Shown in pieces: positions 4,588 to 63,732 of a stretch of 64,000 nucleotides of DNA (the stretch's first letter is position 1; each line of letters opens with the position of its first letter). Position numbers and translations under genes: made by a program. Where the stretch lies: contig JBAMJV010003290.1 in the NCBI GenBank assembly GCA_037951105.1, positions 124,001-188,000 of the forward strand. The letters are read 5' to 3'. Origin of the DNA: Echinarachnius parma (Eukaryota > Echinodermata > Echinoidea > Clypeasteroida > Echinarachniidae). The notes under the pieces are model-generated. The model was not told where the DNA came from. It saw nothing but the letters and a program-made list of their open reading frames with translations, and did no database searches.

Positions 4588-4904
4588 TTAAAGAATAATA
4601 CAAAAATGTATTTTATCTTCCGGGTCCTCGTTTTCATCAACGTTTGAGGACGTGGAAGCGGTTTCGGAAGTCGGGGTCGAAGTTCCCGACTTTTCGCTTC
4701 CGTTAACTGAGATCGGATTACCAGCATCGTCGACGGCGCGTTGGTTTCCATCTTCATCCTCCTCCCCCTCCTCCTCATCATCAACAAACTCGTAATCTTC
4801 ATCGTCTTCCTCATCATCATCATCGTCATCGTCATCCTCATCTCCTTCTTCATATTCCTCTTCATCCTCCTCTTCTTGCTCTGTCACTTCTGTTTTCTGT
4901 TCGT
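4588..4904 (-). CDS. RanBP2: Copy I last exon: acidic C-terminal tail
   Basis: 317 nt from acceptor AATACAG to the stop; with the phase-1 base it is 106 codons. It starts [10 protein letters not shown] and then has a long Glu/Asp run ([20 protein letters not shown]), followed by [20 protein letters not shown], a Ser/Thr-rich stretch and EDPEDKIHF. No cyclophilin domain follows, unlike vertebrate RanBP2. The Asp run is coded by GAT/GAC repeats and differs in length among the copies at 4.8, 44.0 and 46.6 kb. Confidence 0.8.
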
Positions 4905-16900: not shown

Positions 16901-19900
16901 TTTTTTTTATTTAATTTTTTTTAAAAGTTAATTTTATCACAAAAAGTGAGAAACATGCAGAGGTTCCAGAAATATAAGTATAAGTATCAGTAATAATATC
17001 AGACCTTAAATGCATCTGAGAATGAGTAGCCTCCTTGAGTAACAACAGGTTTTACAGGTGGCTGGATCGCAGCAGTGCCAAAAGCGAATCCTGTAGAAGC
17101 AGCAGCAGCTGGGGTCTTTTCGGCAACCTTCGGAGGGGGGGCACCACTGTCGGGAAATGAAAACTGGGGCAACAAACTACCACTACTGAAGGTGAATTTA
17201 TCAGTTACGAGGGTACCGCCAGGAGTAGTGGCACCGGATGTGGTTGTCGGTGCGATAGCGGTTTCTCCTTTGGGCTCGGCGTCGTCTTTCTTGGCAGCGC
17301 CGAAGGCGAAGGAGGTGGACTCCGTTGATGGTGCAGATGGCGCGCCAAAGTTTGAAGGGGGCTTGAACGTGGTGCTCGGGGCACCACCATCTTTAGCGGT
17401 AGTGTCTGCAGTCCCTGTGTTAGACATTTGTGCCAGGTTGAAACCAGAGGGCACATTGAAGGGTGCACCATCATCACCACCAGATGCACCGCTGCCGGTG
17501 CCAGAACCAAATGATACTCCAGTTCCACTGCCGGCACCTGAACCGAAAGAGAATCCTGTTCCGGTGCTGCTAGAACCCGAACCGAAACTGAAGCCGGTTG
17601 AAGGAGCACTCCCCTGCTGCCCGAGGCTGAATCCTGCTGGCAGTTTAACAGCGGCACCAGCAGGGAGACCAGCAGTACCTCCACTTGCACCGGTGGTCGC
17701 AGATGTTGGTGCAGGTTCAGCACCTGGTTGGGCAGAACCACATGCTACGCAAGCCAGTGAATCCACAGAGTTATTTGAGTAGCACTCGTCGCAATCCCAC
17801 GTTCCAGACTTGTTGGCGAATCTTGCTGCAATGGCACCACCAGCAGCACCTACACTCACGGCTGAAGGGGCGAATTTCGGCGCAGCAGGAGCTGCAGAAA
17901 CTGGCTTGGATGAACCTGGCTGTGCGGAGCCACAGGCAACGCAAGCCAGTGAATACACAGAGTTATTTGTGTAGCAGCCGTCGCAATCCCACGTTCCAGA
18001 CTTGTTGGCGAATCTTGCTGCAATGGCACCACCAGCAGCACCTACACTCGCGGCTGAAGGGGCGAATTTCGGCGCAGCAGGAGGTGCAGAAACTGGCTTG
18101 GATGAACCTGGCTGTGCGGAGCCACAGGCAACGCAGGTTGGTGATTCTGCAGAGTTGTTTGAGTAGCAGCCGTCGCATTCCCACGTTCCAGACTTCTTGG
18201 CAAACCTTGATGCGATACTCGATGGAGCCTGTGGAGAGCAAGAAAAAACGTTTTAGGAAATCTTAATTAACAAGAGATACATTTGTATGTTTTTGTAATT
18301 CTGTGTACTTTTACATATTTAATTTTTTGTGATGGATATCATGCTTTGTCTGTCATTGTCAAATAATTCCGCTTGTGTTTTTTATTCACCTCTTGCTTTT
18401 TATCACCTCCCATCAACAATCCAAGGAGCTGTGGGTTGGCTTTCGTTGCCGGGCTTTCTGGCTTCTGCACAAGATTAATCGAATGACAAGAAAACAAGAT
18501 CAATACATTGAGGTTTAATAAAGTTGAACAGATTACACAACACAACAAAATTGAATCTTTATTATAATCACCTCCGCTGCCATCAAAATCATGATCCTAA
18601 TCACCATCATCTTTGTTGTCATCTTCATTACCATCACCATATCGTCATCATCAGCATAACTTTCCTTCTTTTTCTTGTCATCATCATCAACATCATCATC
18701 ATTATCAACATCATCACCATCACCATTGTCATCATCATTATCATCATCATCATAGTCATCATCGTCACCATCATCATTAACATTGTCATCATCACTCTCC
18801 TCTTCCTTAACACTATCATCATCATCATCGTCATCATCATCATCATCATCATCGTCAACATCATCATCATCATTACCCCTCTCCTCTTCCTTATCACTAT
18901 CATCATCATCATCATCTATCTATCCTCACCTGCGCACTTCCCAAGAGCAAACTGGTCAGTTCAGGGTTGGCTTCCGAGACCGAGGGTGTCACGCTGTCTT
19001 TCTTGGGCTACATGACAATGGAACAAAATATGAATATAAATTCATGGTACAAAATATGAATATAAATTCATGGAACAAAATATGAATATAAATTCATGGA
19101 ACAAAATATGAATATAAATTCATGGAACTACTGCATATAAGATCTTTGCACACTCTGCAGTAAGTCAATGGGAGTAACGATACAATTTTTTCTTCATTTT
19201 TTGTGGTTGCTATGGTACAGAGTATGCGATAATGCTGCATCTCAACAAAAAAACATGACAATTTACCCATTGCTTGAGACAAGGTGATGTAGCTTGTATA
19301 TTATATATAAACTTGTGGTATTAAATTTATTTTTTCAGGAAAAAAGGCACCTTAGCATTTTACTAAGCATTAATTATTATAAACAAAACAAACAGAGTAC
19401 AGATCTACTATTCACAGCAAATCTACTGTTCAGCATCACATTGAATAGAATCAAATAAGATTAGAAATTAGTTCACCAAACAAAAGTTCAAAAATACACT
19501 TTTCTAATAGTTTATAAACATCAAGAAAAATAGTATGTGTGTGTGCAAATGAGATATAATGTATATATTCAATCAAGTCATTTTGGAAATAGGGGCATCC
19601 CGAAAAGCTATAATGCTTGAGTGTTTTGACCACCTGTCATAAATATACATGTACATATACAGTTTCCTTTATGTGGGAAGTTCAAAGTTATTTGCCTGGT
19701 TTAATTCTAGTCGAGATTTACGCATATATTACTCGTAGTTGAACAGAAATGTCAGTCGCCAGATTGGGCAAACAATCGAGTCCATTTGTGAAATTGTACT
19801 TGCCCAACATAAATTCTGGCAAGTGCTATTGACAGCCCTGCAAAAGGTCACCCTGGACAAAACCAACTATCAACCATCCTTTGCTTCTGTACAAAATGAT

Positions 19901-23597: not shown

Positions 23598-23630
<33 letters not shown>

Positions 23631-25275: not shown

Positions 25276-26364
25276 CTGTTTGATAAGAACAGATACCATT
25301 TGGTTGTTTTTTTTTCCATTTTTTTTTCCACTAACTACATTTAAACATGTCTAAAGCAGCCAACCTGCCTATAGTGGCCACCTAAAGAGATCCGCTGCAG
25401 AGAAAAAAACATGCAACCTGTTTACAGTGGTCACTTTTCTTGTTTGATGTACATCTACCATGAACAATTACAATATTTGTTTATTTTTAATTAAAGGGAT
25501 CTAGTGGCTTTGTTGATGTGCAAAAAAATGATGTAGGGTTGATAAAATGTGTATTTCTGTGATCTGATATGCTAACTGAGTGATGTGTGAAAATTACATC
25601 ATAACAATGCAAAGTGGTATTTGCTATTTAACTCACTGCACTTACATTTGTACACAGCTGAAAGTCTAGATACTTGAGATTTGAAAATCTCAACACTTCA
25701 ATCATAAATAATATATCTCTATAATGAAAGAGAAATTCAGGAAAAATGAATCCTGCTCCATGTATCTGGTAACACCGGTAACACGATTACAATAAGGCCA
25801 TGAAAAATAAATGGTTGGATTGGCGTAACCCGCCCGCCCCTAAGAATACCGGCGCTAATGCACGCCGACCCTAGAGGTTTTTTCTGAATTTTATTTTTAA
25901 CAAAAAAATAAAAAATAAATAAATAAATAAATAAATAAATAAAAAATTGCAATAGAATTTGCAATTGCGATGAGTTATGTGTGTGTTTTTGTGTATTTGG
26001 TTGCCCGTTACTCCAATCAAACAATTTTTTTTTTTGGCCTAAGGTCTGTGAGAACCACTAGACTATTGAGCATGTTTTTATGGCCAGACGTAGGGCAAGT
26101 CCTCCAAAGCGATGGAACAAAATGCCTGAAAGTAGACTGCACTAAAATTAATTTACACACAATAGCAGAGGCTAGTTTCCTTAGCAAGAGACTGGAAAAA
26201 AAAAGCAGGCAATCACAAAGCGGATGCCACTATACTCAACCCTTGGTTGGAGTGAACGACGAGAGTCAAGTCAAGTCAATACTAAGATAGGAAGTCTGAA
26301 TTATTTAGTGACTAAAACTATTATTACGGATATTATATATCTTTTTTTGCACTCATCACTCTTT
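25276..26364. other. Junction region between copies I and II
   Basis: No credible gene. It holds the left end of a TTAA-type MITE (from 25495, AGGGATCTAGTGG), an AAAT simple repeat (about 25911-25946) and unassigned AT-rich sequence. The joint between the two gene copies must lie here, but I could not place it to the base. Confidence 0.55.
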
Positions 26365-26438
26365 CTACTGTTTAGAATCCGAATCGTAGCGGAATAGCTT
26401 GGCTCTGTGGCTGAATCTGACGTCCTCCCCTTCCTCTC
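26365..26438 (-). pseudogene. Copy II RanBD-B core, truncated by stop
   Basis: From acceptor TTTTTCAG it encodes [19 protein letters not shown] then SDSKQ and a TAG at 26365-26367, where intact copies read SKQWKERG. The same truncated form occurs at about 10450-10532 and 15453-15532. Further decayed pieces lie at about 26567-26620 and 26734-26820. Confidence 0.75.
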
Positions 26439-26874
26439 CTGAAAAAGACAAACAAAATGACACTTTTAATATATTTTACAGAAATCTAACATGACAAGTG
26501 ACATCTATTATCCTCACAGATTAGTTTTTCTTTCTCATCTACATATCTTTATTTTTCACTCATCACTCTTTCTACCGCTTTGATTCTGAATCCTAGTGGA
26601 ACAGCTTGGCTCGGTGGATGAACAGTTAGGAAGGAAAATTAAATTTGTAATACTTTTTTAATATGTAAAGTGAATAGCGTAATCAGCTGGGCCAGGTTCT
26701 CTCACATAACATTTTTCTCCCGTATCACTCTTTCCGCTGCTTTGTTTCTGACTCATAGCAGAACTCAACTGCTTGGCTCCGTGGCTGAACCTCCTCCTCC
26801 TTTTCCTCCCCTACCTCTCCCGACAAAGAAAAACAACAAGCAAGGTTAAATGAAATCTTCAATACTAGGCCTGA

Positions 26875-27030
26875 GGCCCATTTCTTAAAACGCTTGCAAT
26901 TGTTTTAAGTGTCCAATTATTGTAACTACCATGGCAACAGCTGTAATGCTCTATGCTGATTGGCTGTTGACCAAATAGTTACAATAATTGGACACTTACA
27001 ACAATTGCAAGTGTTTTATGAAATGGGCTA
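26875..27030. mobile_element. Palindromic MITE, copy II
   Basis: Same element and same intron position as 10585-10739, with small differences such as TTTCTTAAAACGC on the left arm. Shared by descent with the second RanBD-B of copy I. Confidence 0.8.
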
Positions 27031-27135
27031 CAGATCGTACCAAAGATGTTATAAATGGTCCGTAATGCTTTCATGCCAGTCACTCTGCACTTATGTAAAG
27101 AGAAGGAAAGTTAAAGGAAAATGTGAAGTACTGAC

Positions 27136-27451
27136 CTGTCTTAACTTCGTAGTCATCTGCCAGTTGCACGATGGGCTCGAAGTAGATGTCATCCCCCTGC
27201 TCGACCACCTCCTCCCCGCCGTCCGTCCCGGTCGATATCGTCCTCGTCCGACCGTGGGGGCTGCTCGAGAACGACGTCTTCGGGGAGCGTCCCCCTCCCG
27301 GCGACTTGGTGGGACTCTTCGCGGTGACCTCCTTGACATACATACGGAACGAGAACGAAGAGCCCTGTGACTTGGCGAGGTCAGCGAACGAAAGTGCCGG
27401 TTTCGTTGTTTCGCCCGACGTCGAGGCTGTTGGCGTCTCACCACCCAACGA
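27136..27451 (-). pseudogene. Copy II RanBD-B lead exon (open)
   Basis: 316 nt, phase 0 in and phase 1 out, with [19 protein letters not shown] in place of [19 protein letters not shown]. Splice sites are intact. Confidence 0.75.
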
Positions 27452-29051: not shown

Positions 29052-29097
29052 CTGTGGAGAGCAAGAAAAAACATTTTATAATTTAAAGAAATCTTAA

Positions 29098-38143: not shown

Positions 38144-38427
38144 CTTTTGGCCTCACAGCAGGTATACAGACGTAACCTAACCAGGCGCCGTGCGAGCTGT
38201 ACTACGTATTACAGCGCTGATCACAGTTAGTACAGACGCAATCTTATCCGGTGCGCCATCCTTTTTGTAGAGGGAGTCGATATCCAGATCCTCGACACAG
38301 CCCCTGCATCCACGGCAGGGCGGGGCGCTCTCGTAGAGGTAGAACCCAGGGGGGAGGAGCAGCTTATTGGCTTTAGCCACCAGCTCTGGGGGAGGCAGCG
38401 TCATGGCAACGAAGATAGCATCATCAT
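38144..38427 (-). pseudogene. Copy II DDDV exon, disrupted
   Basis: Keeps both splice sites and the [23 protein letters not shown] and CRGCRGC parts. It carries a 68-bp insertion (about 38163-38230) that is absent from 23782-23997. The insertion shifts the frame and brings a TAG at 38177-38179. TACAGACG flanks the insertion on both sides, as in a small target or templated duplication. Confidence 0.8.
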
Positions 38428-39801: not shown

Positions 39802-39832
<31 letters not shown>

Positions 39833-43772: not shown

Positions 43773-44113
43773 TCAGTATTCATGTATTTTATCAATGTCC
43801 GGGTCCTCGTTTTCATCAACGTTTGAGGAAGTGGAAGCGGTTTCGAAAGTCGGGGTCGAAGTGCCAGACTTTTCGCTTCCGTTAACTTTCTCGCGCCCCC
43901 ATTCCGTGAATGATAAGATCGGATTGCCAGCACCGTCGACGGCGCGTTGGTTTCCATCTTCCTCCTCCCCCTCCTCCTCCTCATCATCAACAAACTCGTA
44001 ATCTTCATCGTCTTCCTCATCATAATCGTCATCGTCGTCCTCATCATCATCTCCTTCTTCATATTCCTCTTCATCCTCCTCTTCTTGCTCTGTCACTTCT
44101 GTTTTCTGTTCGT
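43773..44113 (-). CDS. RanBP2: Copy III last exon: acidic tail
   Basis: 341 nt, phase 1 in, 114 codons with the carried base. Like copy I but with an extra SFTEWGREKVNGS insertion and a different end (EDPDIDKIHEY). The Glu/Asp run is slightly changed (DDDEDDDDDYDEED). Confidence 0.75.
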
Positions 44114-47100: not shown

Positions 47101-50100
47101 CGATCAGTGGTATCACGCTTCATATTCAAAGTTTTCTCTGTAGTCATTAACCATACACAAATGTTATATTCATGTACATTATCTAAAGAGTAATTCCACT
47201 AATGCAATGGTAATGAGAGTCTACTACTATTTAAGACAAATATAACTAATACACAATGATCAATTTAAAAAAAAGAGCAAATTTAACAAGAACTTTTTCT
47301 TTTACAGTACCACAAATAAATCTGTATGAATTTCTAGCAAAAGGATAACACATTAAATATGGTATAGTACTGTTAACTAATTGTACTATCCATTATGCTT
47401 TATAAGAATGGATTATTAGAAGTATTAAGCCCTCTGCAGACAGAGCCGATTCGACCCGATCCGACTGGTTTTCATTCGGATCGGCTCAGTTTTCAGTGCC
47501 TCGCGACACACATTTTGCCAGTCGAGAGAGAGTCGGATGCCAGTCGGGGCCGATTCAACACGATGAATCGGCTCCGACAGACCAGGCCCGACTCTAGCCT
47601 GATTGTCGGATCGGTTCGAGTCGGGTCTGTCTGCAGATGGCTTTACACTATTATGGACATTATATTACAAACATTACAAAATTACAAATGAGATCACTGA
47701 GTTAGGAATAGGCGTATATGAAAATGGGTTAACCCTAATCCCACTGGGGGGGGGGGGGGGGCATTTTGGCCCCCCCTGTTGTTTTTTTCGACGTGCATCT
47801 AGACCGATTGGAATTTCACGTTCAAACTTCAGGACTTTTTTCTCTCATGTCTCCCGCGTGTTTTGATATATAATTCACCCCGGTCGGACATGTAGAACTG
47901 ATTTTAGAGGTTGATAATTGCTCGACCGTCACAAAAAACTGCAATTTTTGTACAGGTTTCTATGTAATTCCTACATCCGATGCCATGTTAACTCCAAATC
48001 TGTTTAATATAATTGTTACATTGAATTAAAATTTGGATTATTTCTTTGTTATTAGTTTAATTCATACACTTCAGAGATAAATTCTTCTTAAAAAAACAAC
48101 AAAAAACAATAAAAACAACAAAATACATAAGAATGAAAACAATGTGGGTAAATCCGGGAATATTAATTTGCATATTTATGCAAATTAGTGATATATTTTA
48201 TCACCATAAAAAACATGGATATGATGAATTACATCATTTGAAAGTATTTTTACAGAAAACCTGAAGAAATCCTGTAATTTCTCTTGATTTTAGATGAAAA
48301 TTCAAATTTTCCCCCAAATTCGTCATAAATTTGCATACCTACGGTATTCAAAGTTTTAATTAATTAGAAACAAAAAAATAATGGTCCAATTAATTTTTTT
48401 TTTCAAATTCTTATTCTACTAGACTTGTTTTACGTATGTGCCAATTTTCAAGTCGATCGGTCCATTCGTTGCCGAGATTTGAGGGGGGGGGGCCAACCCC
48501 CCCCCCCCCCCCCCCAGTGGACTCAAGTGACCAAAATAACCCAGTGGGATTAGGGTTCAACCTGTTAGGCTAGCAGTATGTCGAACTAAACTACCGTGAA
48601 CATGACATCTAGTAAATACAAATTCAGCTTGCCCTTTATGGCCTAGTCCCACTACAGCGAATCCCTTCCGTTTCCTATCCGTTTAACATCCGGAAGGTAC
48701 CAGCAGAACACTGGCAGGAAACGGAATGATGGGGACCAAGTTTGGAATGGACTAATGGGATACTAGTTTTGGCTCCGATTTCGCGTGAAACGAGCTGACA
48801 TCAGAACACACTAACATGAAACGAATCACAACTTAACGATTGGTTGAAGGAGATACACCGCAGTGGGACTACCCCATTAGTAATTACACAGATTTTCTTC
48901 CACATTTGTATATATCGTCGGTGATATCACGTACCGGCGAATGTTTGATTCTGCGCGCTAACGAGATTTTGAGAAAAACGCGTTTAAAGTTTCCCAACTT
49001 CTTCTATCATAAAATAAACAGTTTTAAACAATCAAATTGCAATAAAAGTTCGAAGGTGACGAGAGAGGAATATTCTCTTCAATATGACCCTGAAAATAAC
49101 CTACATTAGGCTCTCGATTCTGTGTAATATCACTGCATAGATCGTTCGTCGGTACGTAGAGGCACTCGCATTGAGCAGTTTGAATCCAGCAATTTGATTG
49201 TTTAAAACTGTTTATTTCATGATAGAAGAAGTTAGGAAACTTTAAACGCGTTTTTATCGAAATCTCGTTAGCGCATAATCAAACATTCGCCGGTACGTGA
49301 TATCACTGACGATATGTACAGACCATAACATGAGATATGAATACATCATATGAATAACTGACAACAATATAAGTGTTTAAACCTTTGACCAACAAATTGA
49401 GTTGAAAGAAAAAGTGTTAGTGTTTAGCATTGAGAGTGGAAGAAATAAACTTTGTATAAAAATATAGTAGTTATTGTACAGCATTCTCTATCAAACAGAC
49501 TATAATAATGGATAGCATGAAATTAGACACAACTACATGTACAAACCATCTAATAATACATACTTGTAGATATGTTTTCCCTGGTTATTCTCCGTAATAT
49601 TCATACAATAAGTATAGTTAGTAACACCACCAATGAACTAACCATCTACACATCAAAAAGTTTGTTTAAAATGAGAGTTTGCATTTTTCCTCTCTGAATT
49701 ATCCTCACATTAGATCTCCGTAATATTCGTAAAATAAGTATAATTAGTAACACCACCAATGAACTAACCATCTATCTACACATCATAAAGTTTGTATAAA
49801 ACGAGAGTTTGCATTTTTTTCCCTCTCTGAATTATCCTCACATTAGTCACCTTTGCCGTCAGCAGACGTCGATGTCGATGGCGGGGCGTCGCCCGAAAGA
49901 CTAGTGGGCGTGGCCTCCACATCGCCGTCGGTTTTCTCCGCATCGTTCTGCCTGATCTTCTCCTGGGCCCCTTCAAACTTCTCCTTGAAGGTAGTGGCCG
50001 TCGCGGCGTCTTTGAATTTGATCGCGAGTTGCTCGGAGGTCGGTTCGCCGTCGGAGGCGTCCATCGCGTGCCAGACCCAGGCCCGGTCCGAGCTGGACAT

Positions 50101-53100
50101 CGGGTTGAGCGTCATCGTCGTGGTGATGTAGTGGTTGGCGCAAACCTTGGACAGAAGCAGTTTGATAGTTAATGACTTAATTGTTAATTGATCACGAGCG
50201 TAGGCAATCTGTAAATTTGTGCTATGATGTAATAACCTGGAGAGATTGTAATGACAGAATGGCATGCTTAAAGACATCAAAACCAATCTTTTTTTTAAAG
50301 CAAACGTAAAGTCCATAACTATTGGATAAGTGGGCACCTTTTCATGTTGAAACAGATATTAATGACGCAAAACAAGTGCTATAGATCATTGCCATTACAT
50401 CAAAATCATCATCTTCATTGTTATCATCATCATCGCCATCATCATAATCATCAAATACATCCATCTTCCCTTACCTACCTGCTAATGGACATATAACAAG
50501 ATTCCACCGTGCATACATTTTCAAAATTTTATAACATGAGAATAAACCAGCCATAAAAGGGTACAAAACTCATCGCGGTTAAAAAGATTATCCATCCCAT
50601 AACCATACCTTGTGTATCTGTTCGTGTCGCATCACGATGGGAAACTTGTTCGTCTCTTCAGAGTGCATAATCTTGATAATCCATGACAAAACTTAGTAAA
50701 ATGAGCAAATTAGCCCTAAATGGGTAAATAACCCAATAAAAGTTTAATAGATTATTCATCCCAAACCTTGTGTATCTGTTCGCGTCGCATCACGATGCGG
50801 TACTTGTCTGCCTCTTCAGAGTGCATGATCTTGATGTCGCCGACCCCGCGCTCCTTCCACTGCCGCCCCGTGACGTCGAACCGGTAGAGCTTCCCGCGGC
50901 CGACAAACGCAACGGTCTCCTCCTCCTCCCCGGTAACCAAGTCAACCTTGTCGGGGAGCTTCACGATTGGCTGATAAATAAAAGTCACAATTTAATTTAA
51001 TTTTTTTAAAAGTTTATCACAAAAAGTGAGAAACATGCAGAGGTTCCAGAAATATAAGTATAAGTATCAGTATTAATATCAGACCTTAAATGCATCCGAG
51101 AATGAGTAGCCTCCTTGAGCAACAGCAGGTTTTACAGGTGGCTGGATCGCAGCAGTGCCAAAAGCAAATGATAATCCAGTTCCACTGCCGGCGCCTGAAC
51201 CGAAAGAGAATCCTGATCCGGTGCTGCTGGAACCCGAACCGAAACTGAAGCCGGTTGAAGGAGTACTCCCCTGCTGCCCGAGGCTGAATCCTGCTGGCAG
51301 TTTAAAAGCGGCACCAGCAGGAAGACCAGCGGTACCTCCACTTGCACCGGTGGTCGCAGATGTTGGTGCAGGTGCTGCACCCGGTTGGGCAGAACCGCAT
51401 GCTACGCAAGCATTCGAGAATGAGTAGCCTCCTTGAGCAACAGCAGGTTTTACAGGTGGCTGGATCGCAGCAGTGCCAAAAGCTAATGATAATCCAGTTC
51501 CACTGCCGGCGCCTGAACCGAAAGAGAATCCTGATCCGGTGCTGCTGGAACCCGAGCCGAAACTGAAGCCGGTTGAAGGAGTACTCCCCTGCTGCCCGAG
51601 GCTGAATCCTGCTGGCAGTTTAAAAGCGGCACCAGCAGGAAGACCAGCGGTACCTCCACTTGCACCGGTGGTCACAGATGTTGGTGCAGGTGCTGCACCC
51701 GGTTGGGCAGAACCGCATGCTACGCAAGCATCCGAGAATGAGTAAAAATATAGTAGTTATTGTACAGCATTCTCTATCAAACAGACTATAATAATGGATA
51801 GCATGAAATTAGACACAACTACATGTACAAACCATCTAATAATACATACTTGTAGATATGTTTTCCCTGGTTATTCTCCGTAATATTCATACAATAAGTA
51901 TAGTTAGTAACACCACCAATGAACTAACCATCTACACATCAAAAAGTTTGTTTAAAATGAGAGTTTGCATTTTTCCTCTCTGAATTATCCTCACATTAGA
52001 TCTCCGTAATATTCGTAAAATAAGTATAATTAGTAACACCACCAATGAACTAACCATCTATCTACACATCATAAAGTTTGTATAAAACGAGAGTTTGCAT
52101 TTTTTTCCCTCTCTGAATTATCCTCACATTAGTCACCTTTGCCGTCAGCAGACGTCGATGTCGATGGCGGGGCGTCGCCCGAAAGACTAGTGGGCGTGGC
52201 CTCCACATCGCCGTCGGTTTTCTCCGCATCGTTCTGCCTGATCTTCTCCTGGGCCCCTTCAAACTTCTCCTTGAAGGTAGTGGCCGTCGCGGCGTCTTTG
52301 AATTTGATCGCGAGTTGCTCGGAGGTCGGTTCGCCGTCGGAGGCGTCCATCGCGTGCCAGACCCAGGCCCGGTCCGAGCTGGACATCGGGTTGAGCGTCA
52401 TCGTCGTGGTGATGTAGTGGTTGGCGCAAACCTTGGACAGAAGCAGTTTGATAGTTAATGACTTAATTGTTAATTGATCACGAGCGTAGGCAATCTGTAA
52501 ATTTGTGCTATGATGTAATAACCTGGAGAGATTGTAATGACAGAATGGCATGCTTAAAGACATCAAAACCAATCTTTTTTTTAAAGCAAACGTAAAGTCC
52601 ATAACTATTGGATAAGTGGGCACCTTTTCATGTTGAAACAGATATTAATGACGCAAAACAAGTGCTATAGATCATTGCCATTACATCAAAATCATCATCT
52701 TCATTGTTATCATCATCATCGCCATCATCATAATCATCAAATACATCCATCTTCCCTTACCTACCTGCTAATGGACATATAACAAGATTCCACCGTGCAT
52801 ACATTTTCAAAATTTTATAACATGAGAATAAACCAGCCATAAAAGGGTACAAAACTCATCGCGGTTAAAAAGATTATCCATCCCATAACCATACCTTGTG
52901 TATCTGTTCGTGTCGCATCACGATGGGAAACTTGTTCGTCTCTTCAGAGTGCATAATCTTGATAATCCATGACAAAACTTAGTAAAATGAGCAAATTAGC
53001 CCTAAATGGGTAAATAACCCAATAAAAGTTTAATAGATTATTCATCCCAAACCTTGTGTATCTGTTCGCGTCGCATCACGATGCGGTACTTGTCTGCCTC

Positions 53101-56100
53101 TTCAGAGTGCATGATCTTGATGTCGCCGACCCCGCGCTCCTTCCACTGCCGCCCCGTGACGTCGAACCGGTAGAGCTTCCCGCGGCCGACAAACGCAACG
53201 GTCTCCTCCTCCTCCCCGGTAACCAAGTCAACCTTGTCGGGGAGCTTCACGATTGGCTGATAAATAAAAGTCACAATTTAATTTAATTTTTTTAAAAGTT
53301 TATCACAAAAAGTGAGAAACATGCAGAGGTTCCAGAAATATAAGTATAAGTATCAGTATTAATATCAGACCTTAAATGCATCCGAGAATGAGTAGCCTCC
53401 TTGAGCAACAGCAGGTTTTACAGGTGGCTGGATCGCAGCAGTGCCAAAAGCAAATGATAATCCAGTTCCACTGCCGGCGCCTGAACCGAAAGAGAATCCT
53501 GATCCGGTGCTGCTGGAACCCGAACCGAAACTGAAGCCGGTTGAAGGAGTACTCCCCTGCTGCCCGAGGCTGAATCCTGCTGGCAGTTTAAAAGCGGCAC
53601 CAGCAGGAAGACCAGCGGTACCTCCACTTGCACCGGTGGTCGCAGATGTTGGTGCAGGTGCTGCACCCGGTTGGGCAGAACCGCATGCTACGCAAGCATT
53701 CGAGAATGAGTAGCCTCCTTGAGCAACAGCAGGTTTTACAGGTGGCTGGATCGCAGCAGTGCCAAAAGCTAATGATAATCCAGTTCCACTGCCGGCGCCT
53801 GAACCGAAAGAGAATCCTGATCCGGTGCTGCTGGAACCCAAGCCGAAACTGAAGCCGGTTGAAGGAGTACTCCCCTGCTGCCCGAGGCTGAATCCTGCTG
53901 GCAGTTTAAAAGCGGCACCAGCAGGAAGACCAGCGGTACCTCCACTTGCACCGGTGGTCACAGATGTTGGTGCAGGTGCTGCACCCGGTTGGGCAGAACC
54001 GCATGCTACGCAAGCATCCGAGAATGAGTAAAAATATAGTAGTTATTGTACAGCATTCTCTATCAAACAGACTATAATAATGGATAGCATGAAATTAGAC
54101 ACAACTACATGTACAAACCATCTAATAATACATACTTGTAGATATGTTTTCCCTGGTTATTCTTCGTAATATTCATACAATAAGTATAGTTAGTAACACC
54201 ACCAATGAACTAACCATCTACACATCAAAAAGTTTGTTTAAAATGAGAGTTTGCATTTTTCCTCTCTGAATTATCCTCACATTAGATCTCCGTAATATTC
54301 GTAAAATAAGTATAATTAGTAACACCACCAATGAACTAACCATCTATCTACACATCATAAAGTTTGTATAAAACGAGAGTTTGCATTTTTTTCCCTCTCT
54401 GAATTATCCTCACATTAGTCACCTTTGCCGTCAGCAGACGTCGATGTCGATGGCGGGGCGTCGCCCGAAAGACTAGTGGGCGTGGCCTCTACATCGCCGT
54501 CGGTTTTCTCCGCATCGCCGGCCTCGTTCTGCATGATCTTCTCCTGGGCCCCTTCAAACTTCTCCTTGAAGGTAGTGGCCGTCGCGGCGTCTTTGAATTT
54601 GATCGCGAGTTGCTCGGAGGTCGGTTCGCCGTCGGAGGCGTCCATCGCGTGCCAGACCCAGGCCCGGTCCGAGCTGGACATCGGGTTGAGCGTCATCGTC
54701 GTGGTGATGTAGTGGTTGGCGCAAACCTTGGACAGAAGCAGTTTGATAGTTAATGACTTAATTGTTAATTGATCACGAGCGTAGGCAATCTGTAAATTTG
54801 TGCTATGATGTAATAACCTGGAGAGATTGTAATGACAGAATGGCATGCTTAAAGACATCAAAACCAATCTTTTTTTTAAAGCAAACGTAAAGTCCATAAC
54901 TATTGGATAAGTGGGCACCTTTTCATGTTGAAACAGATATTAATGACGCAAAACAAGTGCTATAGATCATTGCCATTACATCAAAATCATCATCTTCATT
55001 GTTATCATCATCATCGCCATCATCATAATCATCAAATACATCCATCTTCCCTTACCTACCTGCTAATGGACATATAACAAGATTCCACCGTGCATACATT
55101 TTCAAAATTTTATAACATGAGAATAAACCAGCCATAAAAGGGTACAAAACTCATCGCGGTTAAAAAGATTATCCATCCCATAACCATACCTTGTGTATCT
55201 GTTCGTGTCGCATCACGATGGGAAACTTGTTCGTCTCTTCAGAGTGCATAATCTTGATAATCCATGACAAAACTTAGTAAAATGAGCAAATTAGCCCTAA
55301 ATGGGTAAATAACCCAATAAAAGTTTAATAGATTATTCATCCCAAACCTTGTGTATCTGTTCGCGTCGCATCACGATGCGGTACTTGTCTGCCTCTTCAG
55401 AGTGCATGATCTTGATGTCGCCGACCCCGCGCTCCTTCCACTGCCGCCCCGTGACGTCGAACCGGTAGAGCTTCCCGCGGCCGACAAACGCAACGGTCTC
55501 CTCCTCCTCCCCGGTAACCAAGTCAACCTTGTCGGGGAGCTTCACGATTGGCTGATAAATAAAAGTCACAATTTAATTTAATTTTTTTAAAAGTTTATCA
55601 CAAAAAGTGAGAAACATGCAGAGGTTCCAGAAATATAAGTATAAGTATCAGTATTAATATCAGACCTTAAATGCATCCGAGAATGAGTAGCCTCCTTGAG
55701 CAACAGCAGGTTTTACAGGTGGCTGGATCGCAGCAGTGCCAAAAGCAAATGATAATCCAGTTCCACTGCCGGCGCCTGAACCGAAAGAGAATCCTGATCC
55801 GGTGCTGCTGGAACCCGAACCGAAACTGAAGCCGGTTGAAGGAGTACTCCCCTGCTGCCCGAGGCTGAATCCTGCTGGCAGTTTAAAAGCGGCACCAGCA
55901 GGAAGACCAGCGGTACCTCCACTTGCACCGGTGGTCGCAGATGTTGGTGCAGGTGCTGCACCCGGTTGGGCAGAACCGCATGCTACGCAAGCATTCGAGA
56001 ATGAGTAGCCTCCTTGAGCAACAGCAGGTTTTACAGGTGGCTGGATCGCAGCAGTGCCAAAAGCAAATGATAATCCAGTTCCACTGCCGGCGCCTGAACC

Positions 56101-59100
56101 GAAAGAGAATCCTGATCCGGTGCTGCTGGAACCCGAGCCGAAACTGAAGCCGGTTGAAGGAGTACTCCCCTGCTGCCCGAGGCTGAATCCTGCTGGCAGT
56201 TTAAAAGCGGCACCAGCAGGAAGACCAGCAGTACCTCCACTTGCACCGGTGGTCGCAGATGTTGGTGCAGGTGCTGCACCCGGTTGGGCAGAACCGCATG
56301 CTACGCAAGCATCCGAGAATGAGTAGCCTCCTTGAGCAACAGCAGGTTTTACAGGTGGCTGGATCGCAGCAGTGCCAAAAGTAAATGATAATCCAGTTCC
56401 ACTGCCGGCGCCTGAACCGAAAGAGAATCCTGATCCGGTGCTGCTGGAACCCGAACCGAAACTGAAGCCGGTTGAAGGAGTACTCCCCTGCTGCCCGAGG
56501 CTGAATCCTGCTGGCAGTTTAAAAGCGGCACCAGCAGGAAGACCAGCGGTACCTACACTTGCACCGGTGGTCGCAGATGTTGGTGCAGGTGCTGCACCCG
56601 GTTGGGCAGAACAGCATGCTACGCAAGCCAGTGAATCCACAGAGTTGGTTGTGTAGCAGCCGTCGCAATCCCACGTTCCTGTCTTCTTGGCGAATCTTGC
56701 TGCAATGGCACCACCAGCGGTACCTACACTTGCGGCCGAAGGGGCAAATTTCGGCGCAGCAGGAGGTGCAGAAACTGGCTTGGATGAACCTGGTTGTGCA
56801 GAGCCACAGGCAACGCAGGTTGGTGATTCTGCAGAGTTGTTTGAGTAGCAGCCGTCGCAGTCCCAGGTTCCAGACTTCTTGGCAAACCTTGATGCGATAC
56901 TTGATGGAGCCTGTGCAGAGCAAGAAGAAGCATTTTAAGAAATCTTAATTAAGAAGAGATACATTTGCATTGTTTCTTTGTAATTCTGTCTACCATATTG
57001 TATGGTTTGTCATGAATATCATGCCTTGTCTGTTCTTTCAATGTCAAATAATTCTGCTTGTTGAATATGGAAGTAAATTCAAACCAAATCAAACTTTGTA
57101 AATTCACCTCTTGCTTTTTATCACCTCCCATCAACAATCCAAGGAGCTGTGGGTTGGCTTTTGTTGCCGAGGTTTCTGGCTTCTGCACAAGATTAATCAA
57201 ATGACAAGAAAACAAGATCAATAGGTTTAATAAAGTAGAACATATTACACAACACAACAAAATTGAATCTTTATTATAATCACCTCCGCTGCCATCAAAA
57301 TCATGATCATAATCACCATCATCTTTGTTGCCATCTTCATTACCTTCACCATATCGTCATCAGCATAACTTTCCTTCTTTTTCTTGTCAGCATCATCAAC
57401 GTCATCATCATTATCATCATCATCACCATCACCATTGTCATCATCAATATCATCATCATCACCATCACCATTGTCATCATCATCATAGTCATCATCGTCA
57501 CCATCATTAACATTGTCATCATCTTTATCATTGTCATCATCATTATCATCGTCATCATCATTGTTGTCATCGTCGTCATTGTCATCATCATCATTGTCAT
57601 CATCATCATTAACATCATCATCATTACCCCTCTCCTCTTCCTTATCACTATCATCATCATTATCATCTATCTATCCTCACCTGCGCACTTCCCAAGAGCA
57701 AACTGGTTAGTTCAGGGTTGGCTTCCGAGACGGAGGGTGTCGCGCTGTCTTTCTTGGGCTACATGACAATGGAACAAAATATGAATATAAATTCATGGAA
57801 CTACTGCATATAAGATCTTTGCACACTCTGCAGTAAGTCAATGGAAGTAACGATACAATTTTTTGTCTTTTTTTTGTGGTTGCTATCGTACAGAATATGC
57901 GAAAATGCTGCATCTCGAAAAAAAAACATGACATTTTACCCATTGCTTGAAACAAGGTGTAGGTTGTATACAGAGCGTATCAAAAAAAGCGTTACACTTT
58001 TGAACATTTTTTCAAAATTACATTTTTAGATATTTAGAAAAAATTTTCATGTCGATGGATGCCCAATGGTCTCATCTATCAAGTGCCACTAACAAAACAA
58101 ATTTTCGTTCACGCTTGGGCGAACACTGACTGTTTTTGTACATGGTGTGAAAAATAGCTTGCGCCAATTTGAAAGAAGAGGGACAATTAAACCAGCAGAC
58201 CAAATAGGTACTCTCTTTCAAATAAATTACTCTTTGCCATTAATTTAAGATTATTTTATGATAGTGTAATCATTTTGTGGCAATTTTCTATCATAATTTA
58301 ACTGATTTCATTGCTTTATGCGTGGGTGAGAATACATAAGCCATAGATTGATAGATAATGAAAGGACTTGCATCGTTAATGACAAAATTTCCAGCCTGTC
58401 CTCATTAACGATTCAAATCCTTTCATTGAGTGTGACACATACAAAAGATGACCCAGAAGCATGAACGAATAATTGTATTCATGTTGCTAGATTGATGGGC
58501 TGATTGATTGATTGATTGGATTGATTGATAGATTAATGGATTGATGGATTGATGTATGGATGGAATGAGTGGCATGTGGTTTTGATGTGTCTGTGCTTTA
58601 AAAAAGATCTTGAAGTAATTACCCATTATTGATTCTCTCCCATGCATAAAACAATGAAATCAGTTAAATTATGATAGAAAATTGCCACAAAATAATTACA
58701 CAATCATAAAATATTCTTAAATGTATGGCAAAGAGCAATTTGTTTGAATGGGAGTACTTATTTGGTCTGCTGGTTTAATTGTCCCTCTTCTTTCAATTTG
58801 GCGCAAGGCGTTTTTGACACTCTGAACAAAAACTGTCAGTGTTCGCCCAAGCGTGAACGAAAATTTGTTTTGTTAGTGGCACTTGATAGATGAGACCAAT
58901 GGGCATCCATCGACATGAAAAAATCTTATAAATATATACAAATGTAATGTTGACAATTTTTTCAAAAGTGTAACGCTTTTTTTGATACGCCCGGTATAAA
59001 CTTGTGGTATTAAATTTATTTTTAAGGAAAAAAGGCACCTTGGCATTTTCTACTAATCACAGCAAATCTACTGTTCAGCATCACATTGAATAGAATCAAA

Positions 59101-60428: not shown

Positions 60429-60459
<31 letters not shown>

Positions 60460-63400
60460 TTATTTATTATTTATTTATTTATTTTTTTATTAAATTTTTT
60501 TTATTTTATTTTATTTTATTTATTTTTATTTTTGTTTTATTTATTTATTTTTTATTTTTTATTTTTTTTTCCCATGTCCCTTCTGGGGCGTCAAATTTAT
60601 ATTTTTTTCACTCTAATTTTTTTTAAATTAATTTTTATGTCCCTTCCAGGGCATCACATTTTTATTTTTTGACCAGTTGAAAAGTCTACCACATGAAATT
60701 TGCGATATTTAATGTTGCGAGATGCCGGATGAGCACTACGTCATTGACGTTCTGGTTATTCATTAAAAATATACTTTAGGGCACTCAAAAGACTGAAATT
60801 TTCATCTGAAAACATATTGTGATATTCAATCATCCAATTTGGTACCTTTAAACAGAAAAATACTAGAAAGGATTGCAAAAAATGAAGAAAATCTAGAAAT
60901 AGTCACTGTGTAGTCCCATGTTTATAGTTTCATGTATGGTGTCTGTTTCTCCTATCAGGAGACGCCCAATATTTTTTTTAATCATGTAAACTGAAAGATA
61001 TCATTATGTGATCATGATTTATGAAAAACTAATCCAGAAAAAATAAACAAGATCAGAAATAATCCTCATTTGATGTTTCCACTTTATGTCCACTTTGGCG
61101 TGGAATTGCCCTCTTGATTCGTAGTTGAACAGAAATGTCAGTTGCCTGATTGGGCCTGAATTTGTTAACTTGCCCTGGGGCTGTCCAGCAAGTGCAATTG
61201 AGAGTCCTGCTAAAGATCACTCGGGCCCAAATCAGTCTCCTACTATCAACCCATTCAGGACTGGTCCCAAAAATATTCAGGCTGGGTGGGGTCTATGGAA
61301 AATACATGTTATAGCAAAATCAATCAGTCCTGAATGAGTTAAACCATCCTTTGCTTCTGTGCAAAATGATTTACAAATTAAGAATGACTCTGCCTACCAC
61401 GACTTTCTGGCCGAGCATTTTCTGCGCATTTACAAACCCCTCCTTGAAGCTTATGTACAAAATGATTTACAAATTAAAGGGACATTGTCCAAACCCTCAA
61501 AATAAAATTGTAATTCTAGTGGTTCCCTTATACCTTGTTGTATTCGTATTAACAATAAAATCATGGGACAGGTTTCGGTTTTTCAAATTTCCCTTTCGTT
61601 ACAAAGATATGTATGATTGAAGTATTCAGATAAGAAAAACTCCGGGTGAGTTTTTCTTCCGTGTACAAAGTGAGTGCAGTGAGATAGTGAATATCACTTT
61701 GCATTTTCGCTCATTACTTGGCCATACAATGTCCATTTGACTTGAAATTTTCACACAATACCCTGTGGACATATGAGATAACAACAATATACATTGCATC
61801 AACCATTCGTCACTTTTTGCACATGTCAACAAAGTTACTAGATCCCTTTAAGAAGGACTCGGTCTACCTCAACATTCTGGCCGAGCATGTTCTGCGCCTT
61901 GTCGCAAAATCAATCAGTCCTGAACGGGTTAAACCATCCTTTGCTTCTGTGCAATATGATTTACAAATTAAGAAGGACTCTGCCTACCACGACTTTCTGG
62001 CCAAGCATGTTCTGCGCCTTGTCAAAGGCCTCCTTGAAGCTTATGTACAAAATGATTTACAAATTAAGGAGACTCTTCCTACCTCGACTTTCTGGCCGAG
62101 CATGTTCTGCGCCTTGTCAAACGCCTCCTTGAAGCGGCGCGCGTCCTCCGCGTGCTTGAACTTGACGCACAGCTGCTCGTCTTTGGCCTCCTCCTCGGAG
62201 AAGTCGACCGCGACCCACACCCACGACGTCTCGGATGACTGCATGGGCTTCAGCTCCATCTCCTTGGTGATCCAGTGGTTTGCACACAACTGGGGAGGGG
62301 GATCAAAGGTCAAAGGTCAAATGCAATTCAGATTAACTTTAGAGGCAAGATTTCCAAACATGAAGACCTAGGATCTCTCCAAAGATTGCATGGGCTTCAG
62401 CTCCATCTCCTTGGTGATCCATTGGTTTGCACACAACTGGGGGGGGGGGGGGGGGGGGGGGGTCAAAGGTCAGAGATCAATATTTATATGAAGAACGATT
62501 CAAATTTCCCCCTATGAATATGAGAAACAGTGGCAAAATTTAAACCCAGGATGTCTCAGACGACTGCATGGGCTTGAGCTTCATCTCCTTGGTGATCAAG
62601 TGGTTCGCACAGAGCTGGAGGAGGTCAGAGATCAAATGTTAACGGTCAAATGTAACTTAAAAATATAAGCACTGAGGCAATATTTCCAAAAAATTAAATC
62701 CTACGATATCTCCAAAGACTGCATGGGCTTAAGCTCCATCTCCTTGGTGACCCAGTGATTCGCGCAGAGCTAAGGAGAGGTCAAAAGTCAATATTTATAT
62801 GAAAAACAATGTTTTTCCGATTATGTAAATGAGGAACAGTGGCAAAATTAAAGCTGAGGACGTCTCAGATGACTGCATGGGTTTCAGCTCCATCACCTTG
62901 GTGATCCATTGGTTTGCACACAACTGAGGGAGGTCAGGTCAGAATTAAAAGGTTTAAGTTTATGGTCAAGTTGCAAATTTCCAACAAAAAAATGTCTCAC
63001 AATGTCTCAGATAACTGCATAGGTTTCACTTTCTTCCTTGGACTTGGGTTAATAAAGGATAAATTGTTGTCAGAGAGAAGATCATAAACCCAGATAAACG
63101 CCACGTCGGTCACCTTATAGACCAAGCATGGTGGCATAGCGGTTAGAGTGTCCGCTTCATGCACAGGAGGTCCCGGGTTCGAACCCAGACCGCGTCATAC
63201 CAAATACTTTTTTTTAAATGGTACCTTCTGTCTTCTAGCCAGGCGCTAGGCAGTTATAGTATGGAGAAGGGAGATTTAATCACACGAGTTACCAGAGGAC
63301 TGGCCCCCTTCTGTATCTTTCGCTACATTTAGTAGATGTGTGGCCTAGGGCTAATGAATCGCCTTATGTGCCAAAATTGGCACGGTAAGGACTTTAAATT

Positions 63401-63732
63401 CACCTTATAGATCTGATCCCTTCTCATCAGGACGCGAGCAGTGCCTGTCCTGGGGTTGCGGTGAATCTTGATATCGCCCACGCCCCGTTCCTTCCACGCC
63501 TTGAGGTCACTGGCGTAGCGGTAGAGCTTGGCACGATGACGGAACAACTCATCCTCGTCCTCCTCCCCGGTGCTGATGGTGCCGATGTCGGGCAGTGAGA
63601 TGATGGGCTCGTAGTGGGGGTCGTATGCGTCATCGTGGCCATGGTTGTCATCGTCGTCCTCGCCGTCGTGGTGCGGCTTGCCGCCGGCGCCAAATATAGG
63701 GGCACCGGCGAAATGGAATGGCTTGTCAGTTT
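43773..63732 (-). CDS. RanBP2: RanBP2/Nup358-like gene, copy III (5' end outside window)
   Basis: Overview of the exons below. Shortest intact path: RanBD-A (63732-63404, 62289-62083), two spacers, zinc-finger/FG exon, RanBD-C (55551-55348, 54726-54423), acidic last exon. All phases agree. RanBD-B is deleted, with FG joined directly to RanBD-C. The FG/RanBD-C block is then repeated twice more (54028 down to 49457), and the last exon exists twice. The repeats could be skipped, or spliced in to add RanBDs; phases allow both. Upstream exons should lie beyond 64000. Confidence 0.75.
45761..46520. other. Unique insert at the duplication joint, with a hairpin
   Basis: No match elsewhere in the window. 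It holds a 137-codon open frame (45809-46222, plus strand) that I do not recognise, with a mixed composition richer in GC than its surroundings, and a hairpin at 46258-46361 with arms of about 42 bases (GAAATTATGGATTCC and so on) around a loop of about 18. It may be part of a transposon; the frame is probably not a gene. Confidence 0.5.
46457..46731 (-). CDS. RanBP2: Copy III alternative last exon (truncated acidic tail)
   Basis: Acceptor AATACAG and the acidic run ([20 protein letters not shown]) are kept through GNPIL. Then a duplication joint at about 46527 leads into unrelated sequence, giving SQTEHSQCSDGSMINV, a hydrophobic run of Phe and a stop. It is met first by a transcript reading down from block 1, so it could replace the full tail. 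Confidence 0.55.
47731..48557. mobile_element. Non-autonomous DNA transposon, about 827 bp, G-runs next to ends
   Basis: Left end AACCCTAATCCCACTGGGG and right end CCCAGTGGGATTAGGGTT are inverted repeats, each bordered inside by G or C runs. The paralogous place at about 6427 in copy I is an empty site (GGGTTAAACCTGTTAGG). A 3'-truncated copy lies at 45112-45760. Same plan as 13119-14072. Confidence 0.8.
48913..49314. mobile_element. Foldback element, about 400 bp
   Basis: TATCGTCGGTGATATCACGT at the left is mirrored at the right end (ACGTGATATCACTGACGATA), and the arms continue inward for about 130 bases. Copy I at about 6940 lacks it. Confidence 0.8.
49851..50145 (-). CDS. RanBP2: RanBD-C, C-terminal half, block 1
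   Basis: Same as 52137-52431. This is the block nearest to the acidic last exons; its phase-1 donor fits their acceptors. Confidence 0.65.
50767..50970 (-). CDS. RanBP2: RanBD-C, N-terminal half, block 1
   Basis: Same as 53053-53256 shifted by 2,286 bp. Open, with splice sites kept. A partial copy of its 3' end lies downstream at about 50610-50690. Confidence 0.6.
51085..51719 (-). CDS. Possible FG exon of block 1 (cryptic acceptor)
   Basis: Equivalent of 53371-54005, with the same borders and frame, and the same doubt about the acceptor. Confidence 0.4.
52137..52431 (-). CDS. RanBP2: RanBD-C, C-terminal half, block 2
   Basis: 295 nt, phase 0 in and phase 1 out. It lacks the 9 bases coding EAG that block 3 retains. 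Donor AAAG|GTGACT. Confidence 0.6.
53053..53256 (-). CDS. RanBP2: RanBD-C, N-terminal half, block 2
   Basis: Same as 55348-55551 shifted by 2,295 bp, with an open frame and the same splice sites. Whether it is transcribed is unknown. Confidence 0.6.
53371..54005 (-). CDS. Possible FG exon of block 2 (cryptic acceptor)
   Basis: Two FG repeat units with the normal donor AAG|GTCTGA but no original acceptor. A pyrimidine-rich stretch followed by GCGTAG|CATGC could serve, and would enter in phase 1, the phase left by the RanBD-C exon of block 3. 635 nt = 2 + 211 codons, so it would be in frame. This use is a hypothesis. Confidence 0.4.
54423..54726 (-). CDS. RanBP2: Copy III RanBD-C, C-terminal half (block 3)
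   Basis: 304 nt, phase 0 in and phase 1 out, encoding [16 protein letters not shown] through [14 protein letters not shown]. It retains [12 protein letters not shown]; the other two blocks lack 9 bases here (KIRQNDAEK). Confidence 0.8.
55348..55551 (-). CDS. RanBP2: Copy III RanBD-C, N-terminal half with a new acceptor
   Basis: 204 nt (68 codons), phase 0 on both sides. The original exon start ([14 protein letters not shown]) is lost. The breakpoint leaves TTTTATTTATCAG|CCAATCGTG, where CAG is the old Gln codon of HFQPIVK. Used as an acceptor it gives [18 protein letters not shown] in frame behind the FG exon. The remaining RanBD blocks are complete. Confidence 0.7.
55666..56910 (-). CDS. 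RanBP2: Copy III zinc-finger exon with three 106-residue FG repeats
   Basis: 1,245 nt (415 codons), phase 0 on both sides. Two full RanBP2-type fingers are followed by three copies of a 318-bp unit (period seen at 55736, 56054, 56372). Each unit runs from the second half of a zinc finger ([10 protein letters not shown]) through [22 protein letters not shown] to GGYSFSDA. The FG part is shortened compared with copies I and [10 protein letters not shown] and the following 100 or so residues are missing. Confidence 0.85.
57108..57182 (-). CDS. RanBP2: Copy III small spacer exon (KPETS)
   Basis: 75 nt, phase 0 on both sides, encoding [20 protein letters not shown] then DKKQE. Intact splice sites. 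Confidence 0.7.
57290..57670. repeat. CAT microsatellite, copy III
   Basis: Interrupted CAT/ATCATC runs between the two small spacer exons, paralogous to 18560-18925. Confidence 0.9.
57681..57758 (-). CDS. RanBP2: Copy III small spacer exon (PKKDS)
   Basis: 78 nt, phase 0 on both sides, encoding [20 protein letters not shown] then LLGSAQ. Intact splice sites. Confidence 0.7.
57971..58994. mobile_element. Tc1/mariner-like MITE with long inverted ends, 1024 bp
   Basis: Ends GAGCGTATCAAAAAAAGCG and a reversed match, flanked by TA on both sides (57969-57970, 58995-58996). The arms reach inward more than 200 bases. The centre has a TTGA/TGGATTGA simple repeat (58497-58565). The copy II place near 29873 is empty (GTTGTATATAAAC). 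TA targets and such ends fit Tc1/mariner. No transposase frame. Confidence 0.85.
59463..61108. mobile_element. GGCAATTCCACG element, interrupted copy
   Basis: Paralogue of 30371-30881, split by the 870-bp repeat at 59901-60760 and extra CGGTAACGGAAGGACAG repeats and flanking sequence. A nested insertion, so the inner one is younger. Confidence 0.7.
59901..60760. mobile_element. Repeat element of about 870 bp, reverse copy
   Basis: Reverse complement of the element at 39511-40384, including the ATTT simple repeat (60425-60575) and the CCGTCCGTCC tract. Inserted only in copy III. Confidence 0.8.
61380..62045 (-). repeat. Partial copies of the 3' end of the RanBD-A exon
   Basis: Three relics encoding [14 protein letters not shown] ends, each followed by a GTAGGC/GTAGAC donor. 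One is interrupted nearby by the MITE at 61478-61847. Without acceptors they are not exons on their own. Confidence 0.65.
61478..61847. mobile_element. TTAA-flanked MITE, about 370 bp
   Basis: Reverse orientation copy of 29098-29487, flanked by TTAA at 61474-61477 and 61848-61851. The empty form TTTACAAATTAAGAAGGACT is present at several places, for example near 19898 and 61963. Confidence 0.8.
62083..62289 (-). CDS. RanBP2: Copy III RanBD-A, C-terminal half
   Basis: 207 nt, phase 0 on both sides, same protein as copy I over most of its length. Downstream are three truncated copies of its 3' end with donors (61380-61450, 61855-61905, 61975-62042); upstream are truncated copies of its 5' end. 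Confidence 0.85.
62370..63035 (-). repeat. Array of truncated RanBD-A exon starts, copy III
   Basis: Same type as 20215-20900: about five relics with an AG acceptor and MELKPMQ-like starts, and a G-run of about 23 at 62440-62462 beside one acceptor. Order and spacing match copies I and II. Confidence 0.7.
63110..63335 (+). mobile_element. tRNA-derived SINE, copy III
   Basis: Head with box A (TGGCATAGCGG) and box B (GGTTCGAACCC); here box B is a perfect consensus, unlike copy I. Body as at 21050-21190. Confidence 0.8.
63404..63732 (-). CDS. RanBP2: Copy III RanBD-A, N-terminal half
   Basis: 329 nt, phase 1 in and phase 0 out. Two codons shorter than copy I in the AGAPIFGAG lead. RanBD blocks are complete ([42 protein letters not shown]). 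Confidence 0.85.

Follow-up and report, generated by a model that had tools for sequence, protein, structure and literature searches.

Introduction

The nucleoporin RanBP2/Nup358 is usually encoded by one gene, which is essential in mice (PMC6920530). The protein takes its place in the nuclear pore through its N-terminal domain (NTD) and a coiled-coil oligomerisation element, and it recruits Ran with its Ran-binding domains (RanBDs) and zinc fingers (PMC13242641; PMC10359004). In pores it assembles into pentamers, which present a large number of Ran-binding and zinc-finger domains (PMC13242641). Drosophila Nup358 reportedly lacks the E3 and cyclophilin domains (PMC10359004). Here we describe a RanBP2/Nup358 locus of the echinoid Echinarachnius parma. 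The stretch analyzed (the window) comprises 64,000 nucleotides, positions 124,001 to 188,000 of contig JBAMJV010003290.1 (C3289) in assembly GCA_037951105.1, and a preliminary description had recognized in it a threefold duplication of the 3' half of the gene.

Multi-copy derivatives of RanBP2 are known from apes. The genes of this RGPD family kept the TPR N-terminal part and gained a C-terminal GRIP domain. They originate from segmental duplication, are dispersed on human chromosome 2 and are reported to be under positive selection (PMC6920530). The parallel to RGPD that was drawn in the preliminary description stands insofar as both are multi-copy RanBP2 derivatives, but it is a loose one, as the E. 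parma copies are arranged in tandem, lack the TPR part and show purifying selection. sPom121 is a soluble nucleoporin variant that is not located at the pore and originates from a genomic rearrangement; it derives from a different nucleoporin, and a tandem array is not mentioned for it (PMC4888837). With RanBP2/Nup358 of human, Xenopus and Drosophila the locus shares a TPR NTD, RanBDs, RanBP2-type zinc fingers, FG motifs and an IR-type SUMO/UBC9-binding element. It differs in the order of its modules (IR, RanBD-A, zinc fingers, RanBD-C, RanBD-B, acidic tail) and in their number, since human RanBP2 carries four RanBDs in one gene and 20 that are complete were counted on the contig of the array. 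Vertebrate RanBP2 also has a cyclophilin domain at its C-terminus. Tandem arrays of 3' cassettes or of repeated exon modules arise by unequal crossing-over and are characterized by a common orientation, repeated breakpoints and phase-compatible modules, all of which are shared by the E. parma array. Tandem duplication within a gene is therefore known; its occurrence in this nuclear-pore gene was found unreported in the literature searched, whose coverage mostly excludes subscription journals and preprints.

Gene identity and layout of the array

Eight RanBD-A blocks of RanBP2/Nup358 3'-half exons were found on C3289 between about 124.8 and 310.7 kb, and all RanBP2-like exons described on this contig lie on the minus strand. 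Judging from the sequence, we consider it likely that the blocks represent a real tandem array of 3' halves behind one complete gene and that extra 3'-half products are encoded. C3289 comprises 344,611 bases of an assembly of 1.2 Gb in 14,790 contigs; sequence was read from C3289:104001-344611, C10654:1-30000 and C5657:55001-75000. Exon proteins from the window were placed on the contigs by tblastn, and splice-bounded exon ends were read from the DNA. In the following, A, B and C denote the three RanBD types, Z/FG the exon with zinc fingers and FG motifs, IR an exon with similarity to the SUMO-E3 repeat of RanBP2, ac the acidic-tail exon and FG1 to FG4 small exons with FG motifs. Alpha units are labeled a, beta units b, and d6 is the right block in the window.

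Ran_BP1 was detected by Pfam in five of the ten supplied translations (E 8e-24 to 2e-18), and the Z/FG exon matched the RanBP2-type zinc ribbon (Zn_ribbon_RanBP, E 9e-20). When joined, the RanBDs of each type (A, B and C) matched all four RanBDs of both human and Xenopus RanBP2, and RanBP2-type zinc fingers lie between the RanBDs, an arrangement by which RanBP2/Nup358 is recognized. One-to-one orthology of A, B and C with the human RanBDs (RBD1-4) was considered as well; for A, the scores against several human RBDs lie only a few bits apart, B is nearest to RBD2 and C to human RBD1, and these scores do not settle the assignment. The IR exon matched Xenopus Nup358 (E 4e-6), chains of the human RanBP2 E3 domain (E 2e-4 to 0.02) and the RanBP2 structure 3uin (E 4e-4), which we take to be the IR1-M-IR2 piece. 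When the human N-terminus was used as tblastn query, TPR-region exons were obtained at C3289:330,312 to 319,442 in the correct order, with three significant matches (E 4e-14, 1e-7 and 0.002) and three weak but colinear ones (0.1 to 0.9). The best TPR exon matched RanBP2 NTD structures with E 3e-16, and an engineered TPR protein scored higher. The N-terminal TPR/alpha-helical domain is thus present in a complete gene upstream of the array and outside the window, with TPR exons at C3289:330-319 kb and the first 3'-half unit at about 310-292 kb. Taken together, the Pfam, RanBD, IR and TPR matches bear out the proposed identity, and by its sequence the gene is RanBP2/Nup358.

Two unit types alternate along the array. 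Alpha units run in the order IR, FG, RanBD-A, zinc fingers, RanBD-C, RanBD-B and acidic tail with stop, while beta units are truncated, lacking the front FG1 and FG2 and carrying a broken RanBD-C in all three cases. From right to left, on the minus strand, the array consists of a1, the first unit of the complete gene (FG1 at 309.9 kb to ac at 292.3 kb), b2 (287.7-273.9 kb), a3 (272.1-256.0 kb), b4 with a doubled IR/FG3 piece (251.6-235.1 kb), a5 with a doubled FG1-FG4 front (233.2-213.0 kb), d6 (IR and FG3 at 208.8-207.5 kb, RanBD-A from 187.7 kb to ac at 167.8 kb), b7 (162.4-151.1 kb) and a8 (149.3-128.6 kb). By tblastn, 20 complete RanBDs (8 A, 5 C and 7 B) and three broken C were counted on C3289; nine of the complete ones (3 A, 2 C and 4 B) and one broken C lie in the window, which holds d6 from RanBD-A onward, b7 and a8. 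The array continues rightward beyond it.

The three same-orientation blocks with RanBD-A, zinc-finger/FG and RanBD exons of type C and/or B in the same order were recovered by tblastn and Pfam as described before, and chance similarity between them was ruled out by self-BLAST E-values of 0. The threefold duplication is correct for the window, but the contig holds eight blocks of two alternating types that can be joined in frame. Three equal, independent copies were rejected, since the units differ: a8 contains two RanBD-C and one RanBD-B, b7 a broken RanBD-C and no RanBD-B, and d6 three FG and RanBD-B modules and no RanBD-C.

Homology to other units ends at 310,729 on the right and at 124,793 on the left, and the right edge falls short of the TPR exons. 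Apart from those upstream of the array, no TPR exons were found on C3289, so that the downstream units are without a TPR region. The tested TPR exon occurs at two places in the genome, once on C3289 and once on the presumed allelic contig C10654. The earlier claim that the 3' half alone was multiplied holds accordingly, and whole-gene duplication was rejected for C3289. The FG1-side edge recurs inside the array at 273.1, 234.3 and 150.3 kb and the 3'-flank-side edge at 287.9, 251.8, 247.5, 209.0 and 162.7 kb, a pattern expected from unequal crossing-over between two fixed points.

Reading frames and spliced models

Introns between modules are mostly in phase 1, which is why most rearrangements keep the frame; the introns within RanBDs before the CANH exon, as well as those from A to Z/FG and from Z/FG to C, are in phase 0. 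Five models were spliced in silico, and all of them were open to the stop with AG/GT at every junction: a1 (14 exons, 1,459 codons including the stop), b2+a3 (21 exons, 2,925 codons), b4+a5 (24 exons, 2,551 codons), d6 (14 exons, 1,730 codons) and, in the window, b7+a8 (20 exons, 2,195 codons, or 24 exons and 2,532 codons with the second RanBD-C). Adjacent beta and alpha units thereby join as single open frames. The models omit the IR exons of b4 and b7, which contain an in-frame stop, the decayed RanBD-C exon-2 relics, the partial RanBD-C first exons, one of the two a5 FG3 copies and the shorter d6 acidic-tail copy. As stop-bearing and partial copies were left out, they represent what could be made rather than actual products. 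The acidic tail ends with an in-frame stop in a1, a3, a5 and d6 (...DKIHEY*) and in a8 (...DKIHFCIIL*). One giant protein across the whole array is not favored, since the conserved stop closes alpha units and d6; such a read-through would require skipping of the acidic-tail exons, which the phases permit.

Alternatively, the single TPR part might splice into various downstream units at FG1 (or IR), each unit providing a 3' cassette with its own stop. The presence of one TPR part per contig, the phase-1 acceptor that opens FG1 in all five C3289 copies and the in-frame stop at the end of alpha units and d6 agree with this, as does the constraint on downstream FG1 and FG2 (see below), to which something upstream must splice. 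However, introns of roughly 38 to 160 kb would be required, and the C1 donor of the beta units adjoins FG1 in a compatible phase and yields open composites, so that splicing from the TPR part is unnecessary. We regard alternative cassettes as unlikely, if worth weighing, and it is rather improbable that four to five tandem 3' halves share one pore-anchoring N-terminal half through alternative splicing. If it were, pores with interchangeable cytoplasmic filaments might result, as the halves differ in RanBDs, zinc fingers and FG repeats.

Selection on the exon copies

Changes were counted in exon copies that were at least 85% complete and without stops, comprising exons A1, A2, FG, C1, C2, C3, B1, B2, FG1, FG2 and IR; Z, FG3, FG4, ac and a TRIM-like frame described below were omitted from the pool. 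The downstream alpha units a3, a5 and a8 showed 101 synonymous and 62 non-synonymous distinct changes (omega 0.20, P 5e-24 versus neutrality), a signature of purifying selection. For d6 compared with a1, 38 and 14 changes were obtained (omega 0.11, P 2e-14). FG1 and FG2 of the downstream alpha units are constrained as well (29 and 20 changes, P 2.5e-7), which suggests that translation begins somewhere upstream of FG1. No amino-acid change was found in the first exon of RanBD-B across eight array copies. The Z/FG exons of a5 and a8 are 94.8% identical; two introns of these units are 71-82% identical in their longer pieces, and one 77-base piece reaches 93.5%. The constraint at the protein level implies that the downstream alpha units are probably transcribed and translated.

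Beta units look relaxed, with 8 synonymous and 17 non-synonymous changes (omega 0.68), and their ratio differs from that of the alpha units (Fisher P 0.008).

Paralogues, alleles and copy number

C10654 carries the same TPR exon (100% identity) and a first unit, and it is presumed to be the other haplotype of this unit. Its identity to C3289 is 99.85% in a piece of 11.0 kb and 98.7% in one of 3.5 kb and drops to 92.8-93.5% in others. Within the RanBD-A segment, a1 is identical to its presumed allele and 99.3-99.9% identical to a3 and a8. The beta units are 99.4-99.7% identical to each other and share about 96% with d6 and 85% with alpha, and a5 is about 92% identical to all the others; mutual identity of the three window blocks is 85.4-95.7%. 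Synonymous differences between a1, a5, d6 and beta amount to about 0.07-0.13, compared to 0.016 between a1 and its presumed allele. This segment therefore contains at least four clear paralogous lineages, a1/a3/a8, a5, d6 and beta.

A number of observations count against a real array with encoded products. Neutrality is not rejected for the beta units (P 0.24), the exon filter favors intact copies, and part of the apparent constraint could reflect gene conversion by the complete gene. An in-frame stop is present in three of the four beta-type IR exons (two copies in b4, one in b7) and speaks against translation from b4 and b7 IR exons, and for downstream units neither a start codon nor a promoter was identified. 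Some copies differ by little (99.1-99.8% identity): C3289 139-153 kb matches 262-276 kb with 99.13% identity over 13.9 kb, and tandem pieces reach 99.6 and 99.8%. The presumed allelic contig begins in the spacer after its first unit, so that the array of the other haplotype has no separate assembly. No second full-length copy of the tested 3' flank (2 kb) was found among the 40 of 1,692 candidates scored; the other matches reported were repeat pieces of about 80-105 bases.

If haplotypes or assembler-expanded repeats had been strung together in C3289, the true array would be shorter. The near-identical pieces, the a1/a3/a8 similarity and the lack of a separately assembled second array or 3' flank point in this direction, and haplotype mixing could account in part for a1/a3/a8 or b2/b4/b7. 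Several lineages, however, far exceed the allele difference of the first unit, and the three window blocks are 4-15% apart within one gap-free contig. We therefore give little credence to inflation of the array. It is very improbable that the first unit alone works and the rest is mostly decaying pseudogene debris. The broken RanBD-C of all three beta units, their omega, the IR stops of b4 and b7 and a frame break in three of four TRIM-like copies would agree with decay, but the low omega of the downstream alpha units and of d6 versus a1 argues against it, as do the open frames and GT-AG junctions of all five models. A tandem array that encodes extra 3'-half products thus remains the likely interpretation.

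Related sequences were noted elsewhere in the assembly. A part of the same gene with zinc fingers, FG and RanBD-B, but no TPR, lies at C5657:57-71 kb and has diverged further (synonymous difference 0.16-0.30). Other genes with RanBDs or zinc ribbons occur on contig pairs with equal scores (C8395 and C11434, C3809/C1971, C5743/C6190), an indication that the assembly includes both haplotypes.

Exon structure of the window

Positions in this section are window coordinates, and all features lie on the minus strand. The span 4588-63732 extends exactly from the end of the last acidic-tail exon to the start of the first RanBD-A exon. In d6, splice-bounded RanBD-A exons were placed by tblastn at 63404..63732 (N-terminal half; the homologous open reading frame at 21199-21675 matched Ran_BP1 with E 8e-24) and 62083..62289 (C-terminal half). 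The zinc-finger/FG exon (55666..56910) has two zinc fingers by motif count and 318-bp in-frame repeats. It is followed by three FG and RanBD-B modules (49851..55551) in 2.29-kb units of 99.3-99.6% identity, with RanBD-B halves at 55551-55348/54726-54423, 53256-53053/52431-52137 and 50970-50767/50145-49851 and FG exons between them at 54005-53371 and 51719-51085. The acidic-tail exon (43773..44113) ends with an in-frame stop (...EDPDIDKIHEY*), and a second, shorter copy lies at 46731-46457.

In b7, the IR exon (38144..38427) contains an in-frame TAG, while FG3 (37205..37282), both RanBD-A halves (32812-32478 and 31415-31209, with the changes TGEED to TREED and QIYK to QICK) and the zinc-finger/FG exon (28023..29051) are open. 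Of its RanBD-C (26359..27451), exon 1 is intact (27451-27136), exon 2 consists of broken relics (26439-26359) and exon 3 is absent. Between FG3 and RanBD-A, a TRIM-like open reading frame was found at 34552..35654, with a RING recognized by eye and a zf-B_box at 24.2 bits (Pfam cut-off 24.1). This TRIM-like gene occupies the same position in four units (C3289 284.7, 243.3, 205.7 and 159.4 kb); three copies, including that in the window, share a RING frame break, and the 205-kb copy reads through with an intact RING pattern.

Unit a8 comprises FG1 (25275-25052), FG2 (24761-24254), IR (23997-23782), FG3 (22911-22843), FG4 (22558-22457 and 22245-22144), both RanBD-A halves (21596-21262 and 20139-19933; Pfam, tblastn), a zinc-finger/FG exon with three zinc fingers (17005..18228), a first RanBD-C (15994-15679, 15310-15156, 14423-14153), a bridging FG exon (12142-11874), a second RanBD-C (11161-10846, 10312-10158, 9788-9518), both RanBD-B halves (9062-8815 and 7947-7620) and, as the last exon of the array, the acidic-tail exon with stop (4588..4904). 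The 3' flank shared with the spacer behind other units follows at 793..4587, its homology ending at 793 (C3289:124,793), the left array edge. Immediately 5' of each RanBD-A acceptor (e.g. 21597-21675), the sequence is open in the frame of that exon, contains ATGs and is similar in the three window blocks, making it a possible candidate for an alternative start. Decayed tandem copies of RanBD-C and RanBD-B exons were found in introns adjoining intact ones (10.4-10.6 k, 14.9 k, 26.3-26.8 k and 8.4-8.9 k) and are a record of exon birth and death.

Outside the window, the Z/FG exon of b2 (C3289:274829-277756) has expanded into an open frame of 992 residues; its zinc-finger repeat measures 192 bases and gave 11 overlapping matches. 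The zinc-finger exon of the first unit differs between C3289 and the presumed allele. The array is flanked by a plus-strand gene at C3289:110-117 kb and a minus-strand gene at 341-344 kb which, judging from their translations, presumably encode a fibronectin-III membrane protein and a cytochrome P450, respectively.

Proposed origin and function

We infer that the array may have originated in three steps. The segment from IR to the acidic tail would first have been duplicated by unequal crossing-over, with one breakpoint in the intron that precedes IR and the other in the 3' flank. A second crossover, which joined the intron following RanBD-C exon 1 to the one preceding FG1, could then have created the beta+alpha composites, which would subsequently have been duplicated again with local gains such as the zinc fingers of b2 and the threefold FG and RanBD-B of d6.

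The downstream products are most likely additional Nup358-like proteins that lack the pore-anchoring NTD but have many RanBD, zinc-finger, IR and FG modules. In soluble form or within condensates, they may bind Ran, SUMO/UBC9 and transport receptors. If they were spliced to the single TPR part instead, they would be alternative filaments. Separate translation appears somewhat likelier, because adjacent beta and alpha units already join in frame.

The array would represent an unusual route for enlarging part of the nuclear gate, in which many copies, by their sequence, still look functional. With the Ran- and SUMO-binding half multiplied under constraint and a single TPR part retained, it would provide a natural experiment on the number of RanBDs that is needed and would also probe whether the 3' half works away from the pore. 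Besides RGPD, it offers a second case for asking why the RanBP2 gene is prone to expansion.

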